From NCBI GenBank assembly GCA_963855995.1, contig OY979730.1, positions 10,269,300 to 10,333,299 on the forward strand: DNA of 64,000 nucleotides, in the 5' to 3' direction. The notes beneath the pieces were generated by a model that saw only the letters and a program-made list of their open reading frames with translations, searched no databases and was not told the DNA's origin. The DNA is from Muricea muricata. Taxonomy: Eukaryota > Cnidaria > Anthozoa > Malacalcyonacea > Plexauridae. Both the position numbers and the translations under genes were made by a program. Shown one piece after another: positions 5,226 to 63,896 of the stretch. Each line of letters begins with the position of its first letter. Position 1 is the first letter of the stretch.

Positions 5226-5573
5226 CAATGAAACATTATGCCCTAGCCATGTTTCGTAAAGATGGACAAACCTAGAAACATTGTTTCTTAGCCATGTTTT
5301 TGAAGGTGAACAAACCAGGAAACATTGTTTCCTAGCCATGTTTTCTGAAGGTGTAGGAGAAACCAGGAAACATTGTTTCCTAACCATATTTTCTGAAGGT
5401 GGACCAACCAGGAAACATTGTTTCCTAGCCATGTTTCCTGAAGGTGGATAAACCAGGAAACATTGTTTCCTAGCCATGTTTCCTGAAGGTGGACAAACCA
5501 GGAAACATTGTTTCCTAGCCATGCTTCCTGAAGGTGGACAAACCAAGAAACATTGTTTTCTAGCCATGTGACA
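5226..5573 (+). repeat. 45-bp minisatellite with palindromic core (locus 1)
   Basis: Seven to eight tandem units. The core CATTGTTTCC recurs at 5323, 5371, 5416, 5461, 5506 and 5551, which is 45 bp apart except for one 48-bp step. Each unit contains the short inverted repeat GGAAACATTGTTTCC followed by TAGCCATGTTTCCTGAAGG. Because the unit length is a multiple of three, long open frames run through it, with a 15-residue repeat on the minus strand. These are by-products of the period. The array lies about 1 kb upstream of the promoter of the Tg1/S1-homolog gene, and a second array lies in that gene's intron 2. Confidence 0.9.
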
Positions 5574-9500: not shown

Positions 9501-12500
9501 AACAAAAGAAGAATATAAACATAGTTGTAGGATTTCCTAGGAGCACGCACGTTATCGATGCTAGGTTTAAAAGAACTTTTAGACAATTGCCAAGGAAACA
9601 CCTTATTGCCTCATTTTGAACACATTATGGTAGAAACAAGTTAGAATTCTTCTGGTAGTAAAGTTGAATCAACGAGAGAAGTTCGTTGCTGGATTTCTGG
9701 GAAGAACAGTTAATTAAGTTTAGGTGTCTCACTTCGCATTATAGAACTTTCCAGCAGAAAAGAAGTTTTATTAGTTTACTTTGGTTTATGTTTCCTACTT
9801 AGCAACAATCCTGGACCCATAAGCGATATTTTTTGGGTTTCTCCGAAGAACAGCTTAGAGTTAAAGGTATAGTTAAGTTTGGATAAGAGATGTTCCTCAC
9901 TGGACCTCTAGAAAGAACAGCTCAAGACCTTCGCAGCTTTGGATTTCCAGCGAGAATAGCTTAAAAATGATAGAGCACTCTAGCATAAATAAAGTTAGTT
10001 TAGATTAGGTTCCCTCTTGGCAAGCCTTGACGAATAAGAGATGACTTTTACCAGACCTTTAGAGAAGACAGCTGAGACTTGACAGAATCGTATACAGTTG
10101 GTTAAGTTAGGGTTTCTCCCGCAGTAACATTCAAGCTCAGAGCGAGATAGTTTTTGAATTACAAAATAAATAAGTCGTGATTGTGCTGTCCGACAAACTT
10201 CGATTAAAAAATTGACAGACAAGTCTAATACAGTACATTAATTTTAGCCTAAATATAGCATAACAATTAATGCCAATTGCAGGGGCTTAGGCTAGGCAAT
10301 TTAGGCATAACCCCAAGGTTAATAAGTTGACAGAAGCCGTGGAACAGTTCTAGCTGGTACTGAATGTGGTCACGATAAAGGAGAGAGGCAGATGTTTTGA
10401 AACCAGCTGTTCGAAGAGGCGTAGAAAGGTAGAGAAGAAATGTTGAGGTTTTTCACATAACTTCAATCGTCAGACTGTTGTAGCATTGGAATTAAAGGAG
10501 CACGCCCTTGGAAGAGCGTAGTGGAACAGTTATAGACATGAGACGCTGTTAAAAACACACAATCACATTTCGTAGCACGTTTCTTTAGTCCTACAATATA
10601 AGTTTCCTAGGACGAGCAAAGCAGTCGACATTTTCGCGACTGGGGAGGGGGGGGGGGGAGGGGGCAGGAGACATTTTACAACTACTACCCTCTTCTTTAA
10701 GGCTTTTTTTCTCCTTCGTCCTAAAATGAAGCAAAATTTTTCTTTGCGTGCGCGGCGTGTGTGGATTTGGTTTAATCCGACAGGTTAATAATTTTCGATT
10801 AAAAACTGTAAACCAACGAAACAGCTGCGCTAGTTAATAAATTAATAAACTAGGAAACAATGTTTTACAGTCACATTTCCTTCATACTGAATGTTGACAT
10901 GTTTCCTAGCCATGTTTTCTGAAGGTGGACAAACCAGGAAGCATTGTTTCCTAGCCTTGTTTCCTGAAGGTGAACAAACCAGGAAACATCGTTTCCTAGC
11001 CATGTTTCCTGAAAGTGAACAAAACAGGAAACATTGCTTCCTAGTCATGTTTCCTGAAGGTGAACAAACCAGAAAAAATTGCTTCCTAGCCATGTTCCCT
11101 GAAGGTGGACAAACCAGGAAACATTGTTTCCTAGCCATGTTTCCTGAAGGAGGACAAACCAGGAAACATTGTTTCCTAGCCATGTTTCCCTAGTGTAGGC
11201 GAACCAGGAAACTTTGTTTCTCAGTTATGTTTCCTGAAGGTGGACAAACCAGGAAACATTGTTTCCTAGCCATGTTTCCCTAGTGTAGGCAAACCAGGAA
11301 ACTTTGTTTCTCAGTTACGTTTCCTGAAGGAGGACAAACCAGGAAACATTTTTTCTAGCCATGCTTCCCTAGAAGGGGCGAAACAGGAAACTTTGTTTCC
11401 CAGCCATGTTTTCCCAGTGTGGGCGAAACAGGAACCATTTTACAGGCGTTTGTCTTCTTACGTCTTAAAACTAAGCAAAACTATTCATTGCGTGCGAGGC
11501 GTTGGTGGAATGCGGTTTAATCCAACAGGTTAATACATTTTCGATTAAAAACTGAAAACCAATGGGCTCACTGCAAAACAGCTGCGCTAGTTAATAACTT
11601 ATGAATCTCTTCCTAAAGACTTTATTCCCCCTGCATTTCTTGCGGTGACTCAAAAATTTTCCTTCGACGGAGTTCGAAGACATTAATTGCGGAGCCAAAA
11701 AGACGCAATTTGCAACAAGTATGTTGACATCTTGTAAGAGACTTGTTGCAAATTGCGACAACCCGATACGAGGATGCATTCGCATGATTTGTGACAGCTT
11801 CTTGACGACAAGACTTGTTACAGCTTGTTAAAACAACTGGCAGCAAGCCTTCGGATAACAAGTTTTGACAATCAACACGCAGCAAGTCTGTTGACGACTT
11901 GTAACTGAACAATCGTCAACAAGCTGTCGCAAGCAATGCCAACGCATCCTGAGAGCGGCTTGTTCATAATTGCAAGAAGTCAGCAGATTTTTTGCTACTT
12001 GCCCGTTTTTGACTGAGTAAAGGAGCCCATGTTAGCCTATATATGAAGGTCTGTGTAATTTCAACACTTTCTTTTATTTTAAACAGGACGAGCTAAGATC
12101 AGTTGCAAACAACTCCGTCTTGAATCGCTCAGACAGCCGTCTACCGGATACATCCCAAGATGCAATGGCGATGGGTCATTCAAAAAGACGCAATGTTCTT
12201 TTGATGGACGGGAGATAAAATGTTGGGATGTGGATAGACTTGGAAACCCGATAGGAGTGACACGGAGGCCTTATATAGTTCGTAGTCGTCAACAAAACAA
12301 AGAACGGGAATCGACAAGGACTTTACCACCCATCACCAACGACGCACACCGTGTTACTTACCCAATACGTGATACAACGACTGAAAATGAGATTGTTGAG
12401 ATTGTTGAGCATAAGACAGGACCAGGACAACCAATAAGTAAGGCTCCTTCTTTACTAATGCTCCTTCAATCCAGTAACAAGGTGCTCTTGTTTCTTTTTT

Positions 12501-15500
12501 AAACCCGTAGCACAGGGAATGTGGACTACAAATTAGGCAACGGCAAAAACGCAAGAAGAGTTCAGTTCAGTTCAGTTCAGTTCAGTTCAGTTCAGTTCAG
12601 TTCAGTTCAGTTCAGTTCAGTTCAGTTCAGTTCAGTTCAGTTCAGTTCAGTTCAGTTCAGTTCAGTTCAGTTCAGTTCAGTTCAGTTCAGTTCAGTTCAG
12701 TTCAGTTCAGTTCAGTTCAGTTCAGTTCAGTTCAGTTCAGTTCAGTTCAGTTCAGTTCAGTTCAGTTCAGTTCAGTTCAGTTCAGTTCAGGTTTTGTCTT
12801 GTTCTGCCCTGTCTTTTCCAGTTGAGTTGAGTTCAGTTCAACTCATCTTATCTCCGTTCAGTTCCGGTAGTTGATGAGAGCGAAGCCCGAAATTATTTTG
12901 CCAAAAACAAACTATTAAAAATTGTCTTTGAATTAAAAAATACACAAGAAAAATGATTGTTTTCCTACTTGCTGTGTATCGAGCAACAGATAGCGAGTAC
13001 AGGAACCAATCATATTACATCATTTGCAATAGTATGCTAGTATGATTCTACTAATTCAGTTATTTAAGCTTAGTGAGACTCTAATCTGTCCTCAACTACA
13101 TATTTATTTTCGATTCTTCTTGCCTCTAGCTACCAGACCTTTGACCAGATGCGAAAGAAGGAGAAATCGCAAAAGGGAAAAAGCATTTGGACGCTTGAAT
13201 GCATTCATCCCAGCTTGTACCCCAGAGGGACACTTCCAGCGAGAACAATGTAACGTGGGCAGGACTAAGTGTTGGTGCGTAGGGGAAAAAGGAAAAAAAA
13301 TTCCCGAAACTGTATTCCGTAATTCTGAACGACCGAACTGCTACCCAGGTATTATTTGTTATATTAACTAAGGGCCCAAAAGAGACCCTTTGGGAACTCC
13401 ACCTTTGAATACAACCGTAATAAGGTTGTCATCAAGTCTCATCGGGTCTCGAGTAGCTTGAGTTTGATCAAATTTTAACGGGAGCACAGAATGCGGAAAA
13501 AACAGGACAAAGTGTTTTCCTTTTTTAACCACTTATATTCATGAGGGAGCTCTCATGCAAACGTTGGGTCAGATCATGTCTTTTATTAGACTTCTTTAGA
13601 GATTGACAAAGGTATCCAGTACAAATTAAGTGATTTTAGGTCCATTTGTTCATGATCAATTCTACAAGTGACTCTCTAAATTGGATGAAACAATTCAAGC
13701 CAAACCAAAATGCAGCATCAAACATGCAAATGAGTGTCAAACATGAAATTGGCTGCAACAGAATATGTTTCGAGTAGTTCATTAGAAAAGGAACTTGAGA
13801 CAACGTCCAGAACGCGTTCCATAACCACCAACAATTGAGAGTTCTTCAAGAGCTTCAACCTCTCCGCTGAAGTAACGAGGAAAGCTGAATTACCGATCAC
13901 TTTATGTTTAGATGCTTGTGGTAAGAGGTTTGGGCGTCACTCCAGGCGCAAACGTGTCGTGGGAGGTCAGGTATCGACCCCACATACATGGCCATGGCAA
14001 GCCCTGGTCTTGTTTAGTGATCCTAAACACATCTGTGGAGCAACACTGGTGAAACGAAACTGGCTTGTCACTGCAGCAAGTTGTTTCGGTAAGATACATT
14101 TTTTTACTTAGCTTAGCCACAGGGGTAGGGTCACCACCACAGCGTGAGCCAATTACTGTTTGCCCGTATTACCTATCCCACCCTGTCAACTTTCCTGTGG
14201 GAGAAAACCGGAGTACCCGGAGAAAACCCACAACTTTCGGCAGAGGGTTGACCATACTCTTTTCACATAAGGACTGGGTTCAAGTCCACCTTACTGGGGA
14301 TCGAACTCGGAACCTTAGAGGTGAAAGGCGAAGCCCCAAGCAAAATTTTTAAGCAAAACACAAGACGTTACTTTCCAAAAGTCAAATATACAAATGTGCA
14401 AATGTGCATTACACGTGTTGAAATATACGTGGTGTTGTATTCAATCCTTGGTCGAGGATTTAACACGAGGTTTTGAAATACCTGAGAAGAAAAACAATCG
14501 GACTATTGCATCTTCTCGGATCCGGACGTTAAAATAGTTTAGGTAATTCGGAGTCCCTAATTTTAAGCAATGACCTAGTTGGAGAAATCCGCTCACCAGC
14601 GTGGAGTAACCAACAGGACCCTAAGATTTAAGTCAACAGAAACCAAACAAACCTTTTCTTTTACACAGATAATTTTCCAAAGAGAAGATCCGAATGGAAC
14701 GTTAAACTTGGGGTGCACAAACTGAACTCAAGCGATGAAGACAAACTGAGCGTTAAAGACATACACATTCATGAAAAGTACAAGCCAGGAAACGCTACCC
14801 ATCCAGGGGACTACGATGTTGGTAAGTCAATGTGGTCAGACTTTACCTGTCGAAGACTGCAGACTGGCAGTCGAAATCTCGTCGATCAGAGAACGTTTCA
14901 GAAACTCTATGTTAACTGGTGTTGGGTAAACACCAACCTAAAATGATAAGGCTTTGTGATTGGACTTTTGAAACAAAGGTCACCGTTGTTTGTGATTCGT
15001 TCTTTAGAAAACCAATTTCTATAGTTTTTTGTCTTTCATTGTTATAACCAACCACTCACAAAGCATGTTAGTATAGGTTGGTGGCGCCTCCAGACCAGTA
15101 CAGTTATAGATTACCGTAATTAACGCCTTTTTCGAATGGCCTAGTTTTCCCTCGGCCCACCTACCCAAGTTATTAACCATTGATTCCTTATACTGCAGCT
15201 TTGATAGAAGTCTCAACTTCTGCGAGAATTCCCAGACACGTCATGCCGCTGTGTCTACCAGACAACATTGATTTCTACAAGCAAGGTGCACGGTGTTCAA
15301 TCACCGGGTGGGGACATACTTCGTATAACGGATCACTTTCAAGAGTATTGAGAGAAGCCTGGGTCGACTTGGTACCCCTCGATGAATGCAACTCAGAAAA
15401 GTAAGAGATGCCATTATGTCGTCTACTACAAAGTGAGAAACGTGCAAATTGCAACAAGTCAGCTGACATCTTGCAACAGACTTGTTATCAACTAGATGAT

Positions 15501-30847: not shown

Positions 30848-33094
30848 TCAATTCCTTCCCGCCATCTCTTCAGTACACTTCATGTTTTCCAACACGATAT
30901 TCTCCATCGAGTGCGAGGTTGGAGTCTTGGGTGCATTAGAATAGCCAATGACGCGAGGGAGATGGCAGCGACCACTGCAACACAGGATTGATTTAAAACC
31001 TTCGCGGAAATTCTTCCCCAGCAAACAGTAGATGACTGGATTGCAGGCACAGCTCAGAAACGCCAGCAGAAGTGAGGGGTACCAAACGTATCTAGAATAC
31101 AAATCGAAAGCACAAGGTTTCCTTATGGCATTTTCCTGGTTGTCAGAAGTTCTTGAATCTTAAACCTTTGTACACTAGGAAACGTTCCGAAAGAAAGTTT
31201 CCGAAAAAAAGTTTATGAAACGAATAGAGCATTTGGTTAAAAAGCAGCGAAAATTGAGTTCCAACGGGATCTTATCGACATCTTTATACGGCTAGTACGG
31301 CTGTTCGAAATAGATATACCTTTAATTTCATAATGTTCAATGGTTGAAATGGTTAATTTGTTGACTAGGTACAAAAAGTTTTGAAAACTTGTTTCACAAA
31401 TTAGAACATTGCTCTCATTAGATAAACGTTTGTTTCAGAGATTTTCTTTTCGTATCAAGGCCTTTAATTCACACCCTGTTACTAGTGTGAAGCAGTGAAG
31501 GAATGAATACGTGTTAAGTAACAAAACTTGTACAAACCTGGCGCAGTTTGTATCAAAGGCGTTTAGCTTAAACGGTGGATAAGTGAAATTTGAAAATCAC
31601 TTTTACATCTAGTACGGGACCAAAATTATGAGTTTAATAAAATAAATATTTAGTTTTATATATAATTGTTCTTCTCAGGTCAAATAACTTTAGCTGGCTT
31701 GCTTATACAACATGCAAACTTGTTTAATAGCTTTGAGTAAATGCCTTTGATACAACCGGCCCCTGGTCAAAAGAATTAGAACCGGGTGGAAACCTGCATG
31801 GTTAAAAAAACAGGCAAAAATCGGGCGTATATATCTTTTAAGAGATTTGCTTGGCATCAGTCTCCTGTTACACATGGTATTTTTATAAGACTATGTTAAC
31901 AAAAAATAGGGGTGTTCGTTTCCCCCCCGGGGGGGGGGGGTGGAGAAACAACACAGCCACCCTATTATTTGTTCTCAAAACAGAGTTTTATATTTTTATC
32001 GCATTGCTTGCATATCTATCAGGGGCTTGTTGTCTCTGTATTTTGAGGAGCTAAAAGTTGATCCATCGCTTACGTACTTATAAACACTTTTGTAATCATA
32101 TTCGATCCTCTTCAAAAAGTACAGGATGTTATAAGGCGTCCACGATAGAAAGAAGACGACGATGGTTACAAAAAGCATCTTCACAACCCCCCGTCTCGAT
32201 CTATGCATTGCCATGCTGGCTTCACTTTCGCCGGGGGGTGCAATTCGTAGCCTCCGAATCACATTGAGGTAGAGCACGGAAATGACGATGAGGGGGACTA
32301 GGTACAAGGCTACCACAATGAAAACGCCATAGATGTTTTTAGCCCGCAAACTCGGCCAGCGGTATGTACAGTCACAGCTCAGCTGTTCCCCATCAGTATT
32401 CCACCTGACACCGCAGTAGTACAAGGTTGGAAAATAAATGATAATGGAGGCCAACCATATTGAAGGAATGATGTATTTGAGCCGTGCTTTAAAATCTCCA
32501 AATGTTAATGGTTTGCAAACAGCACAGTATCTCTCGACAGCGATCACGCTTAGGGTTAGAACTGATGAACTGTAGGGAATATTTACCATGTTGATTTGAA
32601 ATTTACAACCCACGTTGCCTGGAAGTGAACGAATAAAATTAAATGCTTTAACTATACAATTACAAACTTTCACTTTCAACTAATTTAAAAATGGATGTTC
32701 TGACTTTAATACTTTAGAAGTATAAATTTTTCTTTAAATAACCCAACTATAGCTTCTTTTAAATATTAATAATGATCGACAACCTACCCAAATTCAAATC
32801 TTTCACAACAAAATCCGTGACTTGGAACACTGTTGCCAAAGCTTGAATAAGATCACTTACGCTGAGATTTACCAACAGATAGTTCGTGACTTCGTGCATC
32901 CTACGATTCGAGGCAACGATGTAACACACCAGACCGTTTCCAGCCACCGCAAACATCAGGATCAAAGTATACACGGTCAAGAATATGGGCACGGCAGAGC
33001 CCAAGGAATTGTAGGCTTCCTTGTTGGTATCATTGCAAGACGATGTTGTGCAATTGGATTGGTTTGTGTAAGAGGTATTTAGCAATGGTACCAT
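30848..33094 (-). CDS. Class A (rhodopsin-like) GPCR, neuropeptide-receptor type (gene A)
   Basis: Three exons read on the minus strand: 33094-32788, 32618-32078, 31091-30848 (1092 nt, 363 residues). The phase 1 and phase 2 introns close in frame. The extracellular N terminus has several N-glycosylation sequons. Helix marks: AGNGLV (TM1), NLSVSDL (TM2, Asp2.50), Cys3.25 in NVGCKFQ, ERYCAV in place of DRY (TM3), the extracellular-loop cysteines in CDCTYRWPS, SWTPYN (TM6) and NPVIY (TM7). CCSG in the C tail could be palmitoylated. The layout matches peptide receptors of the NPFF/QRFP/tachykinin-like group; the ligand cannot be told from sequence. The exon 2 donor is GTACGT after TATAA, chosen because only it joins exon 3 in frame. 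First of three tandem paralogs. Confidence 0.9.
31545..31765. mobile_element. CCGGTTGTATC-ended foldback element
   Basis: Left end TTTGTATCAAAGGCGTTTAG and right end GCCTTTGATACAACCGGCCC are inverted, with GATAAGTGAAATTTGAAAA inside. It lies in intron 2 of GPCR gene A; family copies lie at 42752-43013 and 53074-53320. A C7G12 tract (31922-31940) lies to its right. Confidence 0.75.
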
Positions 33095-34619: not shown

Positions 34620-34772
34620 CAGTAGCAAAGCCAGCCCAACAATTTGGTCATGCTGTGCAAATTTAAACATTATCATTATTCATTTCTTTAAAAATTCATT
34701 CCTTATACGGTAAAAACACAGAAAAATTTGCATTTGCATGACCAAATTAATGTCGGGCTGGCTCGGCTACTG
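34620..34772. mobile_element. CAGTAGC-ended MITE, copy 1
   Basis: Ends CAGTAGCAAAGCCAGCCCAA and GTCGGGCTGGCTCGGCTACTG-like inverse. GGGAATATA occurs just outside both ends, a possible target duplication. The interior AACATTATCATTATTCA and TTCCTTATACGGT is shared with copy 2. Confidence 0.8.
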
Positions 34773-35026
34773 TCAGGGAATATACTGTTGAAATCGAAGT
34801 GCATTCTTATTGGCCTGCAATTTTAGATCCAGATTTTAATTTTTAGATACTAGAGGATTTAAAAACAACTAGATGTTTTGGTTAAATATCCGTACAGTAT
34901 TAGTGGTACATATCGAATAATGAGTGCTATTCCACCAATACACAGGGTGTCTTAAATCGTATAATTTGCATAAACAAGAGCAAAGAGCTACTGGTCATTA
35001 TAAGGTCATCTTAAACGAGCCGAAAG

Positions 35027-35170
35027 CAGTAGCGAAACCAACCCGACAATTTAGTCATACTATGCAAATTGAATCATTATCATTATTCACTCTTTAGCAA
35101 TTGATTCCTTATACGGTCTATAAACACAGAAAAATTTTCATGACCAAATGTCGGACTGGCTTCGCCACTG
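35027..35170. mobile_element. CAGTAGC-ended MITE, copy 2
   Basis: CAGTAGCGAAACCAACCCGA at the left and TCGGACTGGCTTCGCCACTG at the right. CCGAAAG flanks both ends (with A between on the right), a likely target duplication. It lies 254 bp from copy 1 in the same orientation. Confidence 0.8.
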
Positions 35171-35645
35171 ACCGAAAGGTAGATAGCGCTATCCACTGGA
35201 TAGTGATTTTTTCAACTGCCGCAGAAAGGCGTAGAAAAATGACAGTATGACACCAGGAATACTGGGATCGCAAGAGATACAGAGTGAATTGAAGATTAAA
35301 ATTGGTTAAACAGTTACTGAACATGTTAAGAAAGTATGAGAAAATCGCTATGTCCTTTGGATCGGTTCTGCGAATTATGGAAAGCGCTAGACATAGACAC
35401 AATAACACCTCTAGGAATACTGGACTCGCAGGAGATACAAAGTGACTTTGACTCGAAAATGCTGAAGATTAATACTAGTTTACCAGCTACTGAACATGTT
35501 TAGGACTTCACTGTTCAGTGATTGTGCTATCGAACTTTCGTACAATCGACCCCTGACTTAAATCATTGCATTTTTTTTTGAGATAGCTACCATGGAGTCA
35601 TAAACGCATCATGGAAATCTCGAAACATCCTCCTGAGAATTCATT

Positions 35646-38600
35646 TTATGTCGCCATCTGCATTTCATTCGTATGAACTTGTCGCGTAGTGGGTCGCGAA
35701 GGTCTTGTGCTTGAACTTTGAGCCAGGAGATCTTGCATGAAAGCTGGAACGCGACACTGTCGGCCACACAGTATCGATTTGAACGCCTTCCGAAAATTGC
35801 TTCCAAGTAGACAATAAATAATCGGATTGCAGACCGTGTGGAGAGAGGCGATCAGGAGAGATGGATACCACACATATCTGTACAGAAAAAAAGAAGTAGA
35901 ACAATACTTGCTCGGTGGCGCGGGTTTGGTTGATAGATAAATAACAATATAATAATCAGTTCCGATTTCAACAAAACATTTTGTTTGGTTAAACTTACGG
36001 ATATATGCTCCGGTAGTCGACTTCAAGTCTTTTCAATGTGTAAAGAATGTTATAAGGCGTCCAAGCGACAAAAAATACAATCAACGTCACCATCACCATC
36101 CTTACCACGCTCTGGCGTGATCTGTATACTGCAGTATTGCCTGTGTCTTCCCCCGGAATTACCTGAGGATTAAGATGTGCTACAATGACATAATTGTGGA
36201 AGACTATTTTGTAAAAAAAACTTGGGAAAAAGAGGGAGTAATCTGAGTGACATGACTAGCTGAGGGGATTTCATGGTTCTCGATTTTTGCCCGTTTGGAT
36301 TTAATGTAGAGAGTATAATTTCTTCACAAAATTGCCATACATCCTGTATCAGGTATGGTGAAATTCTTGTGTGACAATTAGATTACCATTTATTTTGCGC
36401 AAAAACGCACAAGACAATAATTGTAACAAACCTGGAAAAAAGTTGTAACAAAGTTGCGCTGTTTTTTCCAAGGAATAAGCTGTTATAACAAGCTTAATGG
36501 TCAGACTTGTTACAAGTTTGTTCCAACAAGACTCATACAGTCATGATACAGGAATGTTGTTAGGGTCTCAACTTCGAGGTCTGTATTAGAGTTGGTAGGG
36601 CAACCATGAAACAAGTCTGCATGATATTTTCTTCACGCTTATTACAAACTGTCAAGAAGTTGCACTGAACTAGCAGCTGACGGCTTGAGGTAGGCAGTGC
36701 AAACTTATAGGCAGCTTGAAACAAGCATTCCGAACTCAACTTGTTCACAGGTCGTGACTTCCTTCAAGTCGTGAACTTGTGGCACGCCTATAACGTTTAC
36801 CTGTTTCAGTCTTCGAACAACGTTGGAATAAAAGTACGACGCAACAGTTAATGGCATGACATACAAGACAACGACAATGCCGACGCCATAAATATTCTTC
36901 GCTTTGAGGCTCGGCCAGCGATAGGTGCAATCACAGCTGAGTTGGTCCCCTTCGCTCATTTGATTTTGGCCACAAAAATACAATGTCGGAAAGTAGATTG
37001 TAATAGAAAGCAGCCAGATCGAAGGAACTATATATTTGAGTCTCTCTTTGACACAATCCAGCACGTCCATAGGTCGGCATATGGCGCAGTAACGTTCAAA
37101 TGATATGACGGCAATAGTGAGGCAGGAAGAACCATACGGAATGTTGACCATGTTTACTTGAAATTTGCATCCAACATTACCTGCGTACGGAACAGAAATA
37201 TTGACAGAGTCTATTGACATCTTGCAACAGACTCAATCGTTATAAACAAGCCGATATCAGAATGGGTACCGGTTCACACGGCTTTTGTCATGCAGCTTAT
37301 TCACGACAAGTCTGTTGCAAGTTGTTTCAACAATTTGCAGCTTAATGACATTAACAAGCTGTAACAACCCTATAAAATTTACTTACAACTTACAACAGTG
37401 TCGTTTTGGATGTGCGAAACCAGGTCATTTAGATCGTAAGGATCCCTCATGTTTCGAGAAACTTGACTCAAAAGTAATGTTTCGAATTCCCTACAATTCT
37501 CTCTCACAAGGATGCAAATTTCGTGCGGTTTTTGGGCCGGAAAAGAATTTTGTTCTTGCAAGAAATCTAAGCTCTTGTTATGTTCATGAGGGGGAAGATA
37601 AGCTTTTTAATTGCCCAGATAAGCTGATTTTATTTATGCGTGGGTAGTGCTTTAAAAATGCGTGGTTTCCTTTACATCGGTTACAAGCGCCACTTAGCAT
37701 ATTGCAGGCGGAAATGATGCTAATGTTTGAATGTGAATTATACTAATCACACGCGAGTTATGCTAAATAGTGGTAAAATATGCTAAATAGTAGCAAATTA
37801 TTTTAATTGTGTGTTGTATGACGCAGCGGTTTTTTAAAAACGAGCAAAAAGGACTTGCACGTTCGAAAACATTCACAATTCGCAGCAATAAAAATTCTCT
37901 GCCTTTTTTTGAAATTTGATCATGCTTACAAAAACAACACCTTCCACGCCACTTCAGAACGTCAGCAAAACAGCTCAATGGCGCTAGTGAAAAAAAATGA
38001 CCTTGCGCACTGCATCAGGTTTGGTTGCGCAAGGAAAAATTCTACCAGCAGGATGTGTTCAGATGTTGAGAGCTTTATCGCATCGTCTCTTACTTTCCGA
38101 TATCACCATGGTAATGAAATTTCGAAATTCAAGAGAGCTAAAAGCATTACTTTTTTTATGTGTGGGAATCGAACGTGTCGGAATTTCGAAAATTTTTAGT
38201 GTCTGGAAATTTATCGGTACAAGATTGCATGGTTTATTTTTATCCAACTCATGTATTGACTATTGTGTCCATTCATTTGCTCGCCGTGTCATATTTTTTT
38301 ATCTCATTCTCGTTTTGACAGATGCAACGCCCTTTGACACGTTGAGCGCACCCGTATAGATAATGAAAACAATGTTTGTAAACATAACAGAATGACATTT
38401 GTGTGACGTTAATGATGATATTTGTTCTTATAACTAATCAAATTCTGCCTAGCAATTTAACGATAGCTGATGGAAAATTTTTCTAACATTCTTCGTTCCC
38501 GAAATTTTTAGCTGTATTCCGCAAAAAACTTTTCAAGTGCGTTTTTATTATATCTTTACGCGTAGCGATGAAAAATAGCTACTAAACTGCAGCGCATGAC

Positions 38601-39811
38601 AACGATTAATCACTTGGCTGTTATTTTAGATATTTTGACCACGTTCCAAATAATAAATTTCACGTTCAAAAGTCATGATGCAACCTGGTGTTACTAGTTG
38701 TTTTTTTTTGTGATAATGCCTCTCATTAATAAAGCGGAATAGCTCAAAACGGTAATGCATAACCAAACTTCTACATGAGAAATTATGTAGTGATCTTTAA
38801 TGCAATGCAATTAACAAATTTTCAGACAAAATTTCGTTTTAAAACACTTTATTAAAGTTAAACGCAATCTGATTGTAACTTGATATTCAGCTTTTCAATG
38901 CTCTCTGCGAAATACGATAGACGTGTATGACGCAGTTGTGCAAGTATATTAAAGTTTGCAGTTGTAATGCAGAATGATCTGTATGATTTAGTTTCAATAA
39001 CAATTCATAAGTGTAAATTAGGGAAGATTCAAGAACCGTTGCAAGAACGCTTGCCTTGGCGTTACTATGGGAGTAGTGCAGAATCAATATAGGATGAACT
39101 GTTTTTCCCAAAGGGTGAAAGGGCCAGATAATGTAAGATGTCTTTAATTATGAATTAGATCCATTGCTACCATAGGCGAAAACCTAAACTAACTCCATGA
39201 CATGCTGGATAGCTCTATCAGTTCTAAACTGGTTTTCTTAGAGGTCCAGTAAGGATCATCTCGTATTGATCCAGTGTTACTACAGGAAGAAACCTAAACT
39301 AAATTAACTTTATTTATTGTGGATAGCTCTATCAGTTCTAAAATGTTCTTCCTAAAGGTCCATGCTGTGAAGATCATCTCTTACTGATCCAGTGTTGATG
39401 ATCCATGATAACATTAAACAGCACGTTTTGCGTAGCGCCTTATATAAAAAATAAAAGTGAAGAAAGTAAACATAATAAAACGTACAGATGTAGCGAGCTC
39501 TTACCAAGGTTTAAATCCTTCACGGCGAAGTCGGCAAATTGAAAAGTCGTTGCCAACGCCATGAGGAGATCACTTAGGGCCAAATTGACCAGGAGAAAAT
39601 TGGTTGAGTCCTGCATTTGACGATTTCTCAAGACAATCCAGATGACCAGTCCGTTTCCGATGACGGCAGAAAGTAAGAACACTACATAGATTGTCATGAA
39701 AATCGCCACGGAGAAAACTTTATTGTAGATTTCAGGCTCCGTTTTGTTGGAGGGTACAGCCGTGGTGTAGTTTGTTAAAATAATTTGCATCATTGCGATT
39801 GTTCCATCCAA
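35646..39811 (-). CDS. Class A GPCR, neuropeptide-receptor type (gene B), with an extra intron in intracellular loop 3
   Basis: Four exons on the minus strand: 39811-39505, 37180-36801, 36162-35999, 35877-35646 (1083 nt, 360 residues). All phases close. Motifs: VIGNGLV (TM1), NLALSDL (TM2), NVGCKFQ, ERYCAI (TM3), CDCTYRWPS in loop 2, AWTPYN (TM6), NPIIY (TM7). Exon 1 is 307 nt, exactly as in gene A, and the phase 1 and phase 2 introns are shared with A and C. Between RRLKQ and VIPGED gene B alone has a 638-bp phase 0 intron, where A and C read straight through. CAGGTAA is present at both its ends, and it contains CAAGTTG-family sequence. Intron 1 holds another CAAGTTG element and a 114-bp satellite block. 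Confidence 0.88.
36163..36800 (-). other. Paralog-specific intron in GPCR gene B, flanked by CAGGTAA direct repeat
   Basis: Reading the minus strand, exon 2a ends GAAACAG and the intron begins GTAAACG; the intron ends CCTCAG and exon 2b begins GTAATTCC. So CAGGTAA stands at both boundaries. The interior carries GGTTGCCCTACCAACTCTA and CAGACCTCGAAGTTG, matching the repeat subfamily at 16310-16600, and AACTTGTAACAAGTCTG words. Confidence 0.75.
37205..37375 (+). repeat. CAAGTTG-family dispersed repeat next to a splice acceptor
   Basis: ACATCTTGCAACAGACTC, AAGCCGATATCAGAATGGGT and GACAAGTCTGTTGCAAGTTG in family order. Its left end is about 25 bp from the acceptor of GPCR B exon 2a (37181). Confidence 0.85.
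39150..39400 (+). repeat. 114-bp satellite block (about two units)
   Basis: AGCTCTATCAGTTCTAAACT, TTAGAGGTCCAGTAAGGATC and a second, more decayed unit. It lies about 100 bp downstream in sequence (intron side) of GPCR B exon 1. Confidence 0.85.
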
Positions 39812-40790: not shown

Positions 40791-43700
40791 TTAATTCGCG
40801 GTGAGATTTGTGCGCGCAGTTTGTCGTGACGTCCTCTGTGTTCCACTCGTGGAAACCCTCAATATTCTTGGAATTTTCACGCAGCACAATGTTGACTTGA
40901 CAGCCTTTCGGAAGTTCTTGCTCAACAAGCAGTAGACTATGGGATTGAATGCACAGCTTATGAAGGCCAAGAGCAGGGCGGGATACCACACAAATCTGGA
41001 TGATAAGATGGAGAAAAAATATGTCAAAAATATGAACATTGGATTATGACTGGATAAGATGGAAAACAGCGAAATTTTCAAGACAATGAAAAGACAATGG
41101 TCTATAGAACATTCTGATTACTGGATCATGACTGGATGATATGGAGAACAGTGAGATATGCAAAACGATGAAAAGACAATGGAACATTCTGATCACTGGA
41201 TCATATGGTTGGTTGACACGAAGAACAGCGAGATTTTCAAACCAAGGATCCGGAAAAGACAGTAGAACATTCTGATAAGTGGATCACGACTAAATGACAT
41301 TGGGAACAGGGAGATTTTCAAGACAATGAAAAGACAATGGTCAATAAAACATTCTGATCACTGGATCATGACTGGATGACATGGAGAACAGTGAGATATT
41401 CAAAACTATGAAAAGACAATGTAACATTCTGATCATCGGATGATCAGACTGGATGACATGGGGAACATCAAGATTTTCAATGAAGATGACAATGAAGACA
41501 ATTAAGCATTATGATACGTTTGGCAAAAAAATTAACTTATTAACAAATGAAAAATATATATTAATCTTTCATTCTCTACGTACTTATATATTCTGCGATA
41601 ATCATACTGGAGCCTCTTCAAAAAAAACAATACGTTGTAAGGCGTCCACGCAACAAAAAATAACACGACACTGACAAGCAACATCTTCACAACGCCTTGC
41701 CTTGATTGATACGCCGTAACCGTGCCCTGTTGCTCGCCGGGAATGGAGCGCCTGAGCCTGCGAATCACCAGAAAATAAAGTCTGGAAATAATGACCAGCG
41801 GTATGACGTACAAAGCTACGACCACGCCTATGCCGTATATAGATTTCGCCCGCAGACTTGGCCAGCGTTCAGTGCAATCGCAAGTCAACTGATTTTTCTT
41901 CGTGTCCGTTCGTATGCCACAGTATACAATGTTTGGAATATTCATGCAGGTGCTCGCTAGCCACGCTAGAGGCACAAACCAGCGGACACCACCCTTGAAC
42001 TCATTGAAATAGACAGGCTTGCAAACGGCGCAGTAGCGCTCATACGCGATGAATATGAGAGTAAGGACTGAAGTGCCATACGGAATGTTGTACATGTTGA
42101 TCTGGAACTTACATCCAACGTCACCTGAAAACGGAATCAAAATGAATACTTTCTAACCACTGTTGGCTTTGGAAGGTGTCAATGTACCGAAACAGACGAG
42201 TCAACATTTTGCAAGAGTAAAACTACAAAATTATTATAGATTTTTGCTACGGGAATCTGCATCTGATGGTTGTTAGAATTCGTTTAGATTAAATGTTTCT
42301 TCCTGTAGTAATACAGGATCAATAAATGATGGTTTTTACTGGACCTCTGGGAAGAGCAGTTTAGAAATGATAGAGCTATCCAGTATAAATAAACTTAGTT
42401 TAGTTTAGGCTTCCTTCTGTGGTAGCACTAGATTAATAAGAGATGAAATTCACTGGACCTCTAGGAAGAACAGTTTAGAACTGATAGAGCTATCCAGTAT
42501 AAATAAAGTTAGTTTAGTTTTAAGAAAACTGATAGAGCCTTCTATAGCATAAAATATACACTTATGTATAAGCTTAGGCTATACAAGTCATATTGTTTTC
42601 CCCAGTGAGAATTAGGAGATGACCCTCCATCAGGACATAGGCGGAACACAAATAATTTAGTTTGTTTAAGGATCAGGAAGTGGAAGCCATTCGAAAGTGA
42701 AATTAAATTATTAGACGTAACTGCTGAGCAATTAGGAAGTCATTTGCCTGCAGGGGCTGGTTGTATCAAAGGCGTTTAGCTTCATCAAGATGAAGAGGTC
42801 AGAACTATTGAACAAGTTTGTATGTTGTATAAACAAACCAGTTAATTAGTTATTTGACCAGAGAAGAACAAGTATATATAAAACTAATTATTTATTCTAT
42901 TAAACTCACAATTTTGGCTCCGTACTGGATGTAAAAGTGATTTTTAAATTTCACTTATCCACTGTTGAAGTTAAACGCCTTTGATAGAACCGGCAGGCCC
43001 CTGACTACTTGTGAAATATCAGTTTAAAACCACAATCATAAACAATGCTCTCTCGCAAAATATAAAATTGTTTCAGTTCTTGCATCAAATATCGGACTGC
43101 TACATCTAATAACTACAGTTAATACGTCAACTACATGCCAAGATAGTAAAAATTTCATCTGTATAAATCAGACGATGGATGACCAGAATTGCAATATCAC
43201 GCAATGAATGGCAAAACTAATTACGTATGTTCCAACGAGTTCGATTTTGATGATGTGGTAATGTCCGTGATCATAAAAAAGACTTTGTTTACATTTGGAA
43301 CTTCAAAATCTGTGAGTCGAGTTTCAAGCATTCAAAAAAAGTTCGACGACGAAAATATTTGAGCAAATTGACAGCTCTGCATGTGTGAAACTATTTTTTA
43401 CAGTCGGCGTTAATAAACACTACATGAATTGCCACTTTAGAACTAAATCAATATAGTTTTTGTTTTTCAAACTTCAAAGACAATACATGCAAGTGCTTGA
43501 AGATTCAAATTAGTGCATGGGAATTCCCAAGCAAAAAACCTTTCTTGGTTTTCTCCTGGAAATGCTTTTAAGATATATCATTCTAGAAGCATGTCCAAAC
43601 TCCAAAGTCTTTCAAGCAAAATATCAAATTGTGTTCGCCTTCAACATTTGCCACGAAAAATTTACAAAATATACAAGTCTTATGTCGTCCCAGCGCTATT

Positions 43701-51560: not shown

Positions 51561-63896
<12,336 letters not shown>

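Follow-up and report, generated by a model that had tools for sequence, protein, structure and literature searches.

Comparison of three tandem rhodopsin-like GPCR genes (A, B, and C, all on the minus strand) in the genome of Muricea muricata reveals an intron that, within this genome, is found only in gene B and that, judging from sequence, was likely gained in the gene B lineage. The window, meaning the whole 64,000-nt stretch that was analysed, covers positions 10,269,300-10,333,299 of the forward strand of contig OY979730.1 (assembly GCA_963855995.1), and the coordinates below refer to it. The reading that we regard as quite probable is the gain of an ordinary spliceosomal intron in gene B, with a fold-back MITE inserted into it later; birth of the intron from a repeat of the CAAGTTG family, as the preliminary description had proposed, appears unlikely. 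The case underscores that a splice-consensus repeat together with a transposon lodged in an intron can mimic introner birth, and gene B can serve as an example of intron gain specific to one paralogue of a receptor family.

Membership in the rhodopsin-like GPCR family is indicated for all three genes by Pfam 7tm_1, which matches gene A (E 9e-32), gene C (E 5e-30), and both exon 1 (E 2e-11) and exon 2a (E 3e-20) of gene B, and the solved chains closest to gene C are orexin, bombesin, gastrin/CCK, and opioid receptors. Gene B comprises exon 1 (39505..39793, TM1-TM2, located by tblastn to exon 1 of A and C), exon 2a (36801..37180, TM3 to loop 3), exon 2b (35999..36162, TM6, placed by alignment), and exon 3 (35646..35877, TM7 with NPIIY and the tail, read from the open frame). 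Exon 2 is unbroken across loop 3 by blast and alignment in both gene A (32078..32618; exon 1 at about 33094-32789, exon 3 from about 31090) and gene C (41584..42124; exon 1 at about 44346-44098, exon 3 from about 40994). Several other repeats were observed in and around these genes. An 82-bp tandem array of 5.6 copies (41033-41480) occupies much of gene C intron 2, a 114-bp tandem unit (11.3 copies, 526-1807) recurs by eye at ~39130-39400 in or beside the intron downstream of gene B exon 1, and two copies of another fold-back-looking repeat (34620-34790 and 35025-35175, with ends like cagtagc-aa-gccagcc, by eye) lie directly 3' of gene B. Elsewhere in the window, a 45-bp minisatellite forms two arrays (5230-5569, 7.5 copies, within a 190-aa open frame, and 10900-11411, 11.4 copies), and a perfect (AGTTC)46 array lies at 12559-12790.

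The extra intron is 638 bp long, in phase 0, and interrupts exon 2 of gene B in loop 3 (36163..36800, running from 36800 to 36163 on the minus strand). Exon 2a ends in AAACAG/GTAA, where the slash marks the exon-intron boundary as placed by alignment, and exon 2b begins GTAATTCC. Joining 37180-36801 to 36162-35999 gives an open frame whose alignment with A and C has no gap at the junction (RRLKQ/VIPGE in B against RRLRIAPPGE in A and RRLRRSIPGE in C), and the unspliced frame runs into a stop inside the intron, which is presumably spliced out. The gap-free spliced alignment bears out the earlier description of a phase-0 intron in loop 3 of gene B where A and C are continuous, and two further observations made there are likewise confirmed, namely CAGGTAA at both exon-intron boundaries (36797-36803 and 36159-36165) and CAAGTTG-family sequence within the intron (a MITE profile match at E 3e-49).

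Evidence for gain was sought in the 453-Mb genome (74 contigs of very unequal size: C1 124 Mb, C2 72 Mb, C3 61 Mb, and the others seen, to C16, 11.6-19 Mb) using gene A exon 2 as the query and scoring the best 150 of 178 candidates. This search yielded at least 56 matches, two of which are the two pieces of gene B exon 2. Of the remaining 54, which include A and C, 52 cross the intron site unbroken, from query residue 25 or lower to 161 or higher, one of them with an internal stop codon, and the remaining two end at query residues 129 and 123 within open frames of 381 and 317 aa. No break at the site appears among 27 homologues aligned with B either (27 of 30 loci, leaving out L011 and L014, which are both B itself, and the partial L023). 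Since the flanking introns are present in A and C as well, the extra intron is the only one that differs among the three genes. Identity over 178 positions is 116 for A-B, 106 for A-C, and 95 for B-C, L012, the next relative, shares 36% identity with A, and a tree based on 16 of the 28 aligned rows places A and B as sisters with weak support (83/77). A screen of the viral_contigs set for receptor relatives returned nine pattern-matching stretches, none of them encoding a relative. With 52 of the 54 remaining receptor matches in this genome uninterrupted at the site, gain in the gene B lineage is well supported.

The CAAGTTG family was described earlier as repeated many times in the window, and the counts agree, with 49 occurrences against 14.1 expected and none of 100 shuffles reaching 49. 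When the whole intron was searched against the genome (best 40 of 761 candidates scored), at least 53 matches were found, all of which, except the intron itself, are confined to query positions 129-328 of 637; weaker local matches in the MITE loci extend to intron positions 27-103 and 350-403. Comparison of 27 such loci (20 plus 7, with L048 and L052 overlapping) defines a near-palindromic element of ~445 bp with ends TACACACGTAAAAA...TTTTTACGTGTGTA. One copy, L043, is 76% self-complementary over positions 19-406 with identical 14-bp ends, and so shows terminal inverted repeats. A profile built from 23 copies of the 27 loci matches intron positions 22-383 (of 638) at model positions 8-398 of 411, and the repeat fills about 60-64% of the intron rather than the whole of it. 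The limits of the element were mapped by aligning the intron end to end with 11 copies. The nine full-length copies place its left end at intron positions 9-26 and its right end at 403-417 of 638, and the two shorter ones (L044 and L055) place the left ends at 8 and 16 and the right ends at 380 and 375. By profile and alignment, the intron thus holds an old, near full-length fold-back MITE copy on the minus strand at 36384..36792 (left end 36792-36775, right end 36398-36384, both uncertain), which, from the nine copies, begins 8-25 bp inside the donor and ends 221-235 bp before the acceptor. These end positions indicate that the element is nearly complete yet stops short of the acceptor.

Ten end-pairs could be located at nine MITE loci, with L008 yielding two that have one right end in common. 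In eight of the ten, both ends carry a terminal TA, and direct repeats of at least 4 bp are lacking outside the element in all ten; a 7-bp duplication is therefore not a signature of this family. With its TA ends and fold-back form, the intronic repeat resembles a TA-targeting MITE, and from these two features only we take it to belong to that class (Tc1/mariner-type). The profile gives 33 matches in the window (E up to 0.01, both strands, overlapping) that amount to 4.6% of its length, so a secondary insertion into an existing intron is to be expected; a weak partial match (E 0.004) also lies in intron 1 of gene B, which A and C share, at 37221..37365 on the minus strand. A single-copy tail (36163..36383) separates the MITE from the acceptor. 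The 3' 313 bp of the intron (36163-36475) found only themselves in the 453-Mb genome, and the tail gave chance-level matches only in a blast against the window, with the qualification that the genome search scores the best candidates only and skips very common words, and could therefore overlook a second tail copy that has diverged. The first 150 bp of the intron gave one other genome match, weak (E 1e-6) and inside the MITE-like part. Because the 3' part matches only itself and the 5' 150 bp has one weak match within the MITE part, no family of like introns emerged from these searches, which could overlook a diverged copy: the whole intron was found once in the genome, and the MITE copies are many.

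The preliminary description also read the CAGGTAA at the two boundaries as a duplication. The junctions do share a direct run of exactly 7 bp, and to that extent the claim stands; a run of this length has about a 1% chance per intron (1.0% under a position model built from 16 other introns). The 7-mer is not enriched in the window (11 occurrences against 7.9 expected, with 18 of 100 shuffles reaching 11), and one of the 11 provides an internal control, namely the acceptor of gene B intron 1, common to A and C, whose CAG/GTAA (37177..37183 in the 7-mer scan, minus strand) matches the donor of the extra intron over the identical 7 bp. The junction run was further compared across 17 window introns, taken from genes A, B, and C and a multi-exon gene on the minus strand at 51754-62089 that we take to encode a PRPF40-like splicing factor (its exons 3-4 pair was left out, and exons were assumed to be adjacent elsewhere). 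The run is 7 for the extra intron, 5 for B1 and C1, and 0-4 in the others (the next longest being 5, 5, 4, and 4). When donors and acceptors were swapped, a run of at least 7 arose in 4 of 272 pairs, two of which involve the extra intron's own sites, and in 2 of 240 pairs without those. The CAGGTAA at the junctions thus mostly reflects splice consensus, and the repeat is mildly suggestive for the extra intron without amounting to proof of duplication. In the available text of PMC3443670, 43% of gained introns in Daphnia are flanked by short repeats, and in Drosophila repeats of at least 5 bp occur at 25% of introns that were gained and at 26% of those that are conserved. In the portion available of PMC11782384, direct repeats lie at or near all 213 introns examined and are interpreted as traces of insertion, those of 6-30 bp exceeding chance expectation; the reading given there speaks for an insertion-born intron, and the ubiquity of the repeats speaks for a high background.

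The description of the gain as recent finds no support. The intronic MITE and copy L043 agree at 285 of 361 aligned columns (21% different, with many gaps), and six young copies (L004, L007, L042, L043, L049, and L052) are 94-97.5% identical to one another; if the MITE is nested, the intron would be older than an already old insertion. The A-B duplication sets no useful upper bound on age, since 37 of 46 fourfold sites differ, which amounts to saturation. A recent date would still be compatible with the divergence if the intronic copy came from a different subfamily.

Several explanations were weighed against the favoured order of events. It is unlikely that the intron is ancestral, retained by B alone after losses in A, C, and possibly further relatives: such a history is helped by the weak grouping of A with B and by the fact that the case for gain draws on the paralogues of one genome, but, with the neighbouring introns staying, it would require at least one exact loss should B branch outside A and C, and two should it be the sister of A, and 52 of the 54 other matches (including L012 and L013) pass through the site. 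One gain in B makes for a simpler history than an older gain followed by one or more exact losses. More doubtful still is an introner-type birth, in which an element inserted at CAGGTAA duplicated the site, the two copies became the splice sites, and the tail belongs to the element but is unseen elsewhere. The exact 7-bp match at both junctions, the frame restored without a gap, and the closeness of the MITE's left end to the donor would all fit. Against this, the right end lies 221-235 bp from the acceptor, the tail was found once in the genome, the ten end-pairs of the family show no such duplication, the 7-bp run is matched by chance at the rate given above, and by eye the intron ends lack an inverted repeat. 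Introners as published are alike to near both boundaries, which argues against one here (PMC9860276, in the parts available), given that the likeness of this intron to genome sequence, rather than to annotated introns, is confined to the MITE part. A broader version, in which the MITE, possibly with a captured flank of ~225 bp, inserted at CAGGTAA and made this intron while its relatives made others in the genome, is very improbable. Such a case would be notable, since the 2022 survey, as far as its available text goes, placed introners among animals and land plants in only two groups, both animals (PMC9860276). Among the titles and abstract openings covered by our literature search, none concerned introners in corals or intron gain in this receptor family, which does not in itself show absence.

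Gain followed by MITE insertion is therefore preferred, and we infer the following course. An ordinary intron of roughly 235 bp would have been gained at the CAG/GT site in loop 3 after B split from A and C, from DNA whose source is no longer recognisable; later, a fold-back MITE of ~400-445 bp with TA ends would have inserted just inside the donor, bringing the intron to 638 bp. Two observations sit less easily with this account and also fit an insertion event, namely the MITE's left end 8-25 bp from the donor and a 7-bp run that is the longest of the 17 introns. As for the gain itself, one ordinary route, and our leading guess, is that filler DNA was captured when a staggered double-strand break was repaired, leaving the 7-bp direct repeat; the guess is a tentative one to which we give clearly less than even weight. 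The repeat at the junctions and the 33 repeats in Daphnia that one adjacent exon shares, at 4-12 bp (PMC4202315, available portion), are in keeping with it, but the length of the repeat is near the splice-consensus background, the Drosophila frequencies noted above (PMC3443670) do not separate gained from conserved introns, and the genome search turned up no locus from which the filler could have come. The least credible of the routes considered is that an exon piece bearing AGGT was duplicated in tandem or that another intron was transposed: AGGT stands at both junctions, but no copy of an exon or another intron was found inside the intron by window blast or genome searches, in which a diverged source could be missed.

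TA-targeting (Tc1/mariner-type) MITEs resemble the intronic repeat in fold-back form, terminal TA, and high copy number, the class being assigned from the TA ends and the fold-back form.

With introners (Gozashti et al. 2022, PMC9860276, in the parts available), gene B has in common an extra intron in one gene, a short junction repeat, and DNA-transposon sequence inside, and absence from close relatives holds among the paralogues (52 of 54 matches continuous). Introners, however, form intron families whose likeness extends to near both splice sites, and the survey retained families of at least four like introns, whereas the gene B intron is alike in part only, a pattern filtered there as secondary insertion. 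The family found here shows no target-site duplication (none of ten end-pairs at nine loci), a feature that is not universal in introners, being present in 49 of 130 families. A parallel to the proposed gain is offered by the new Daphnia introns credited to break repair (PMC4202315, available portion), which similarly have a short direct repeat (4-12 bp) across the intron and filler of untraced source. Those gains are recent and within one species, whereas the gene B intron holds an old MITE and lies in a saturated paralogue pair.
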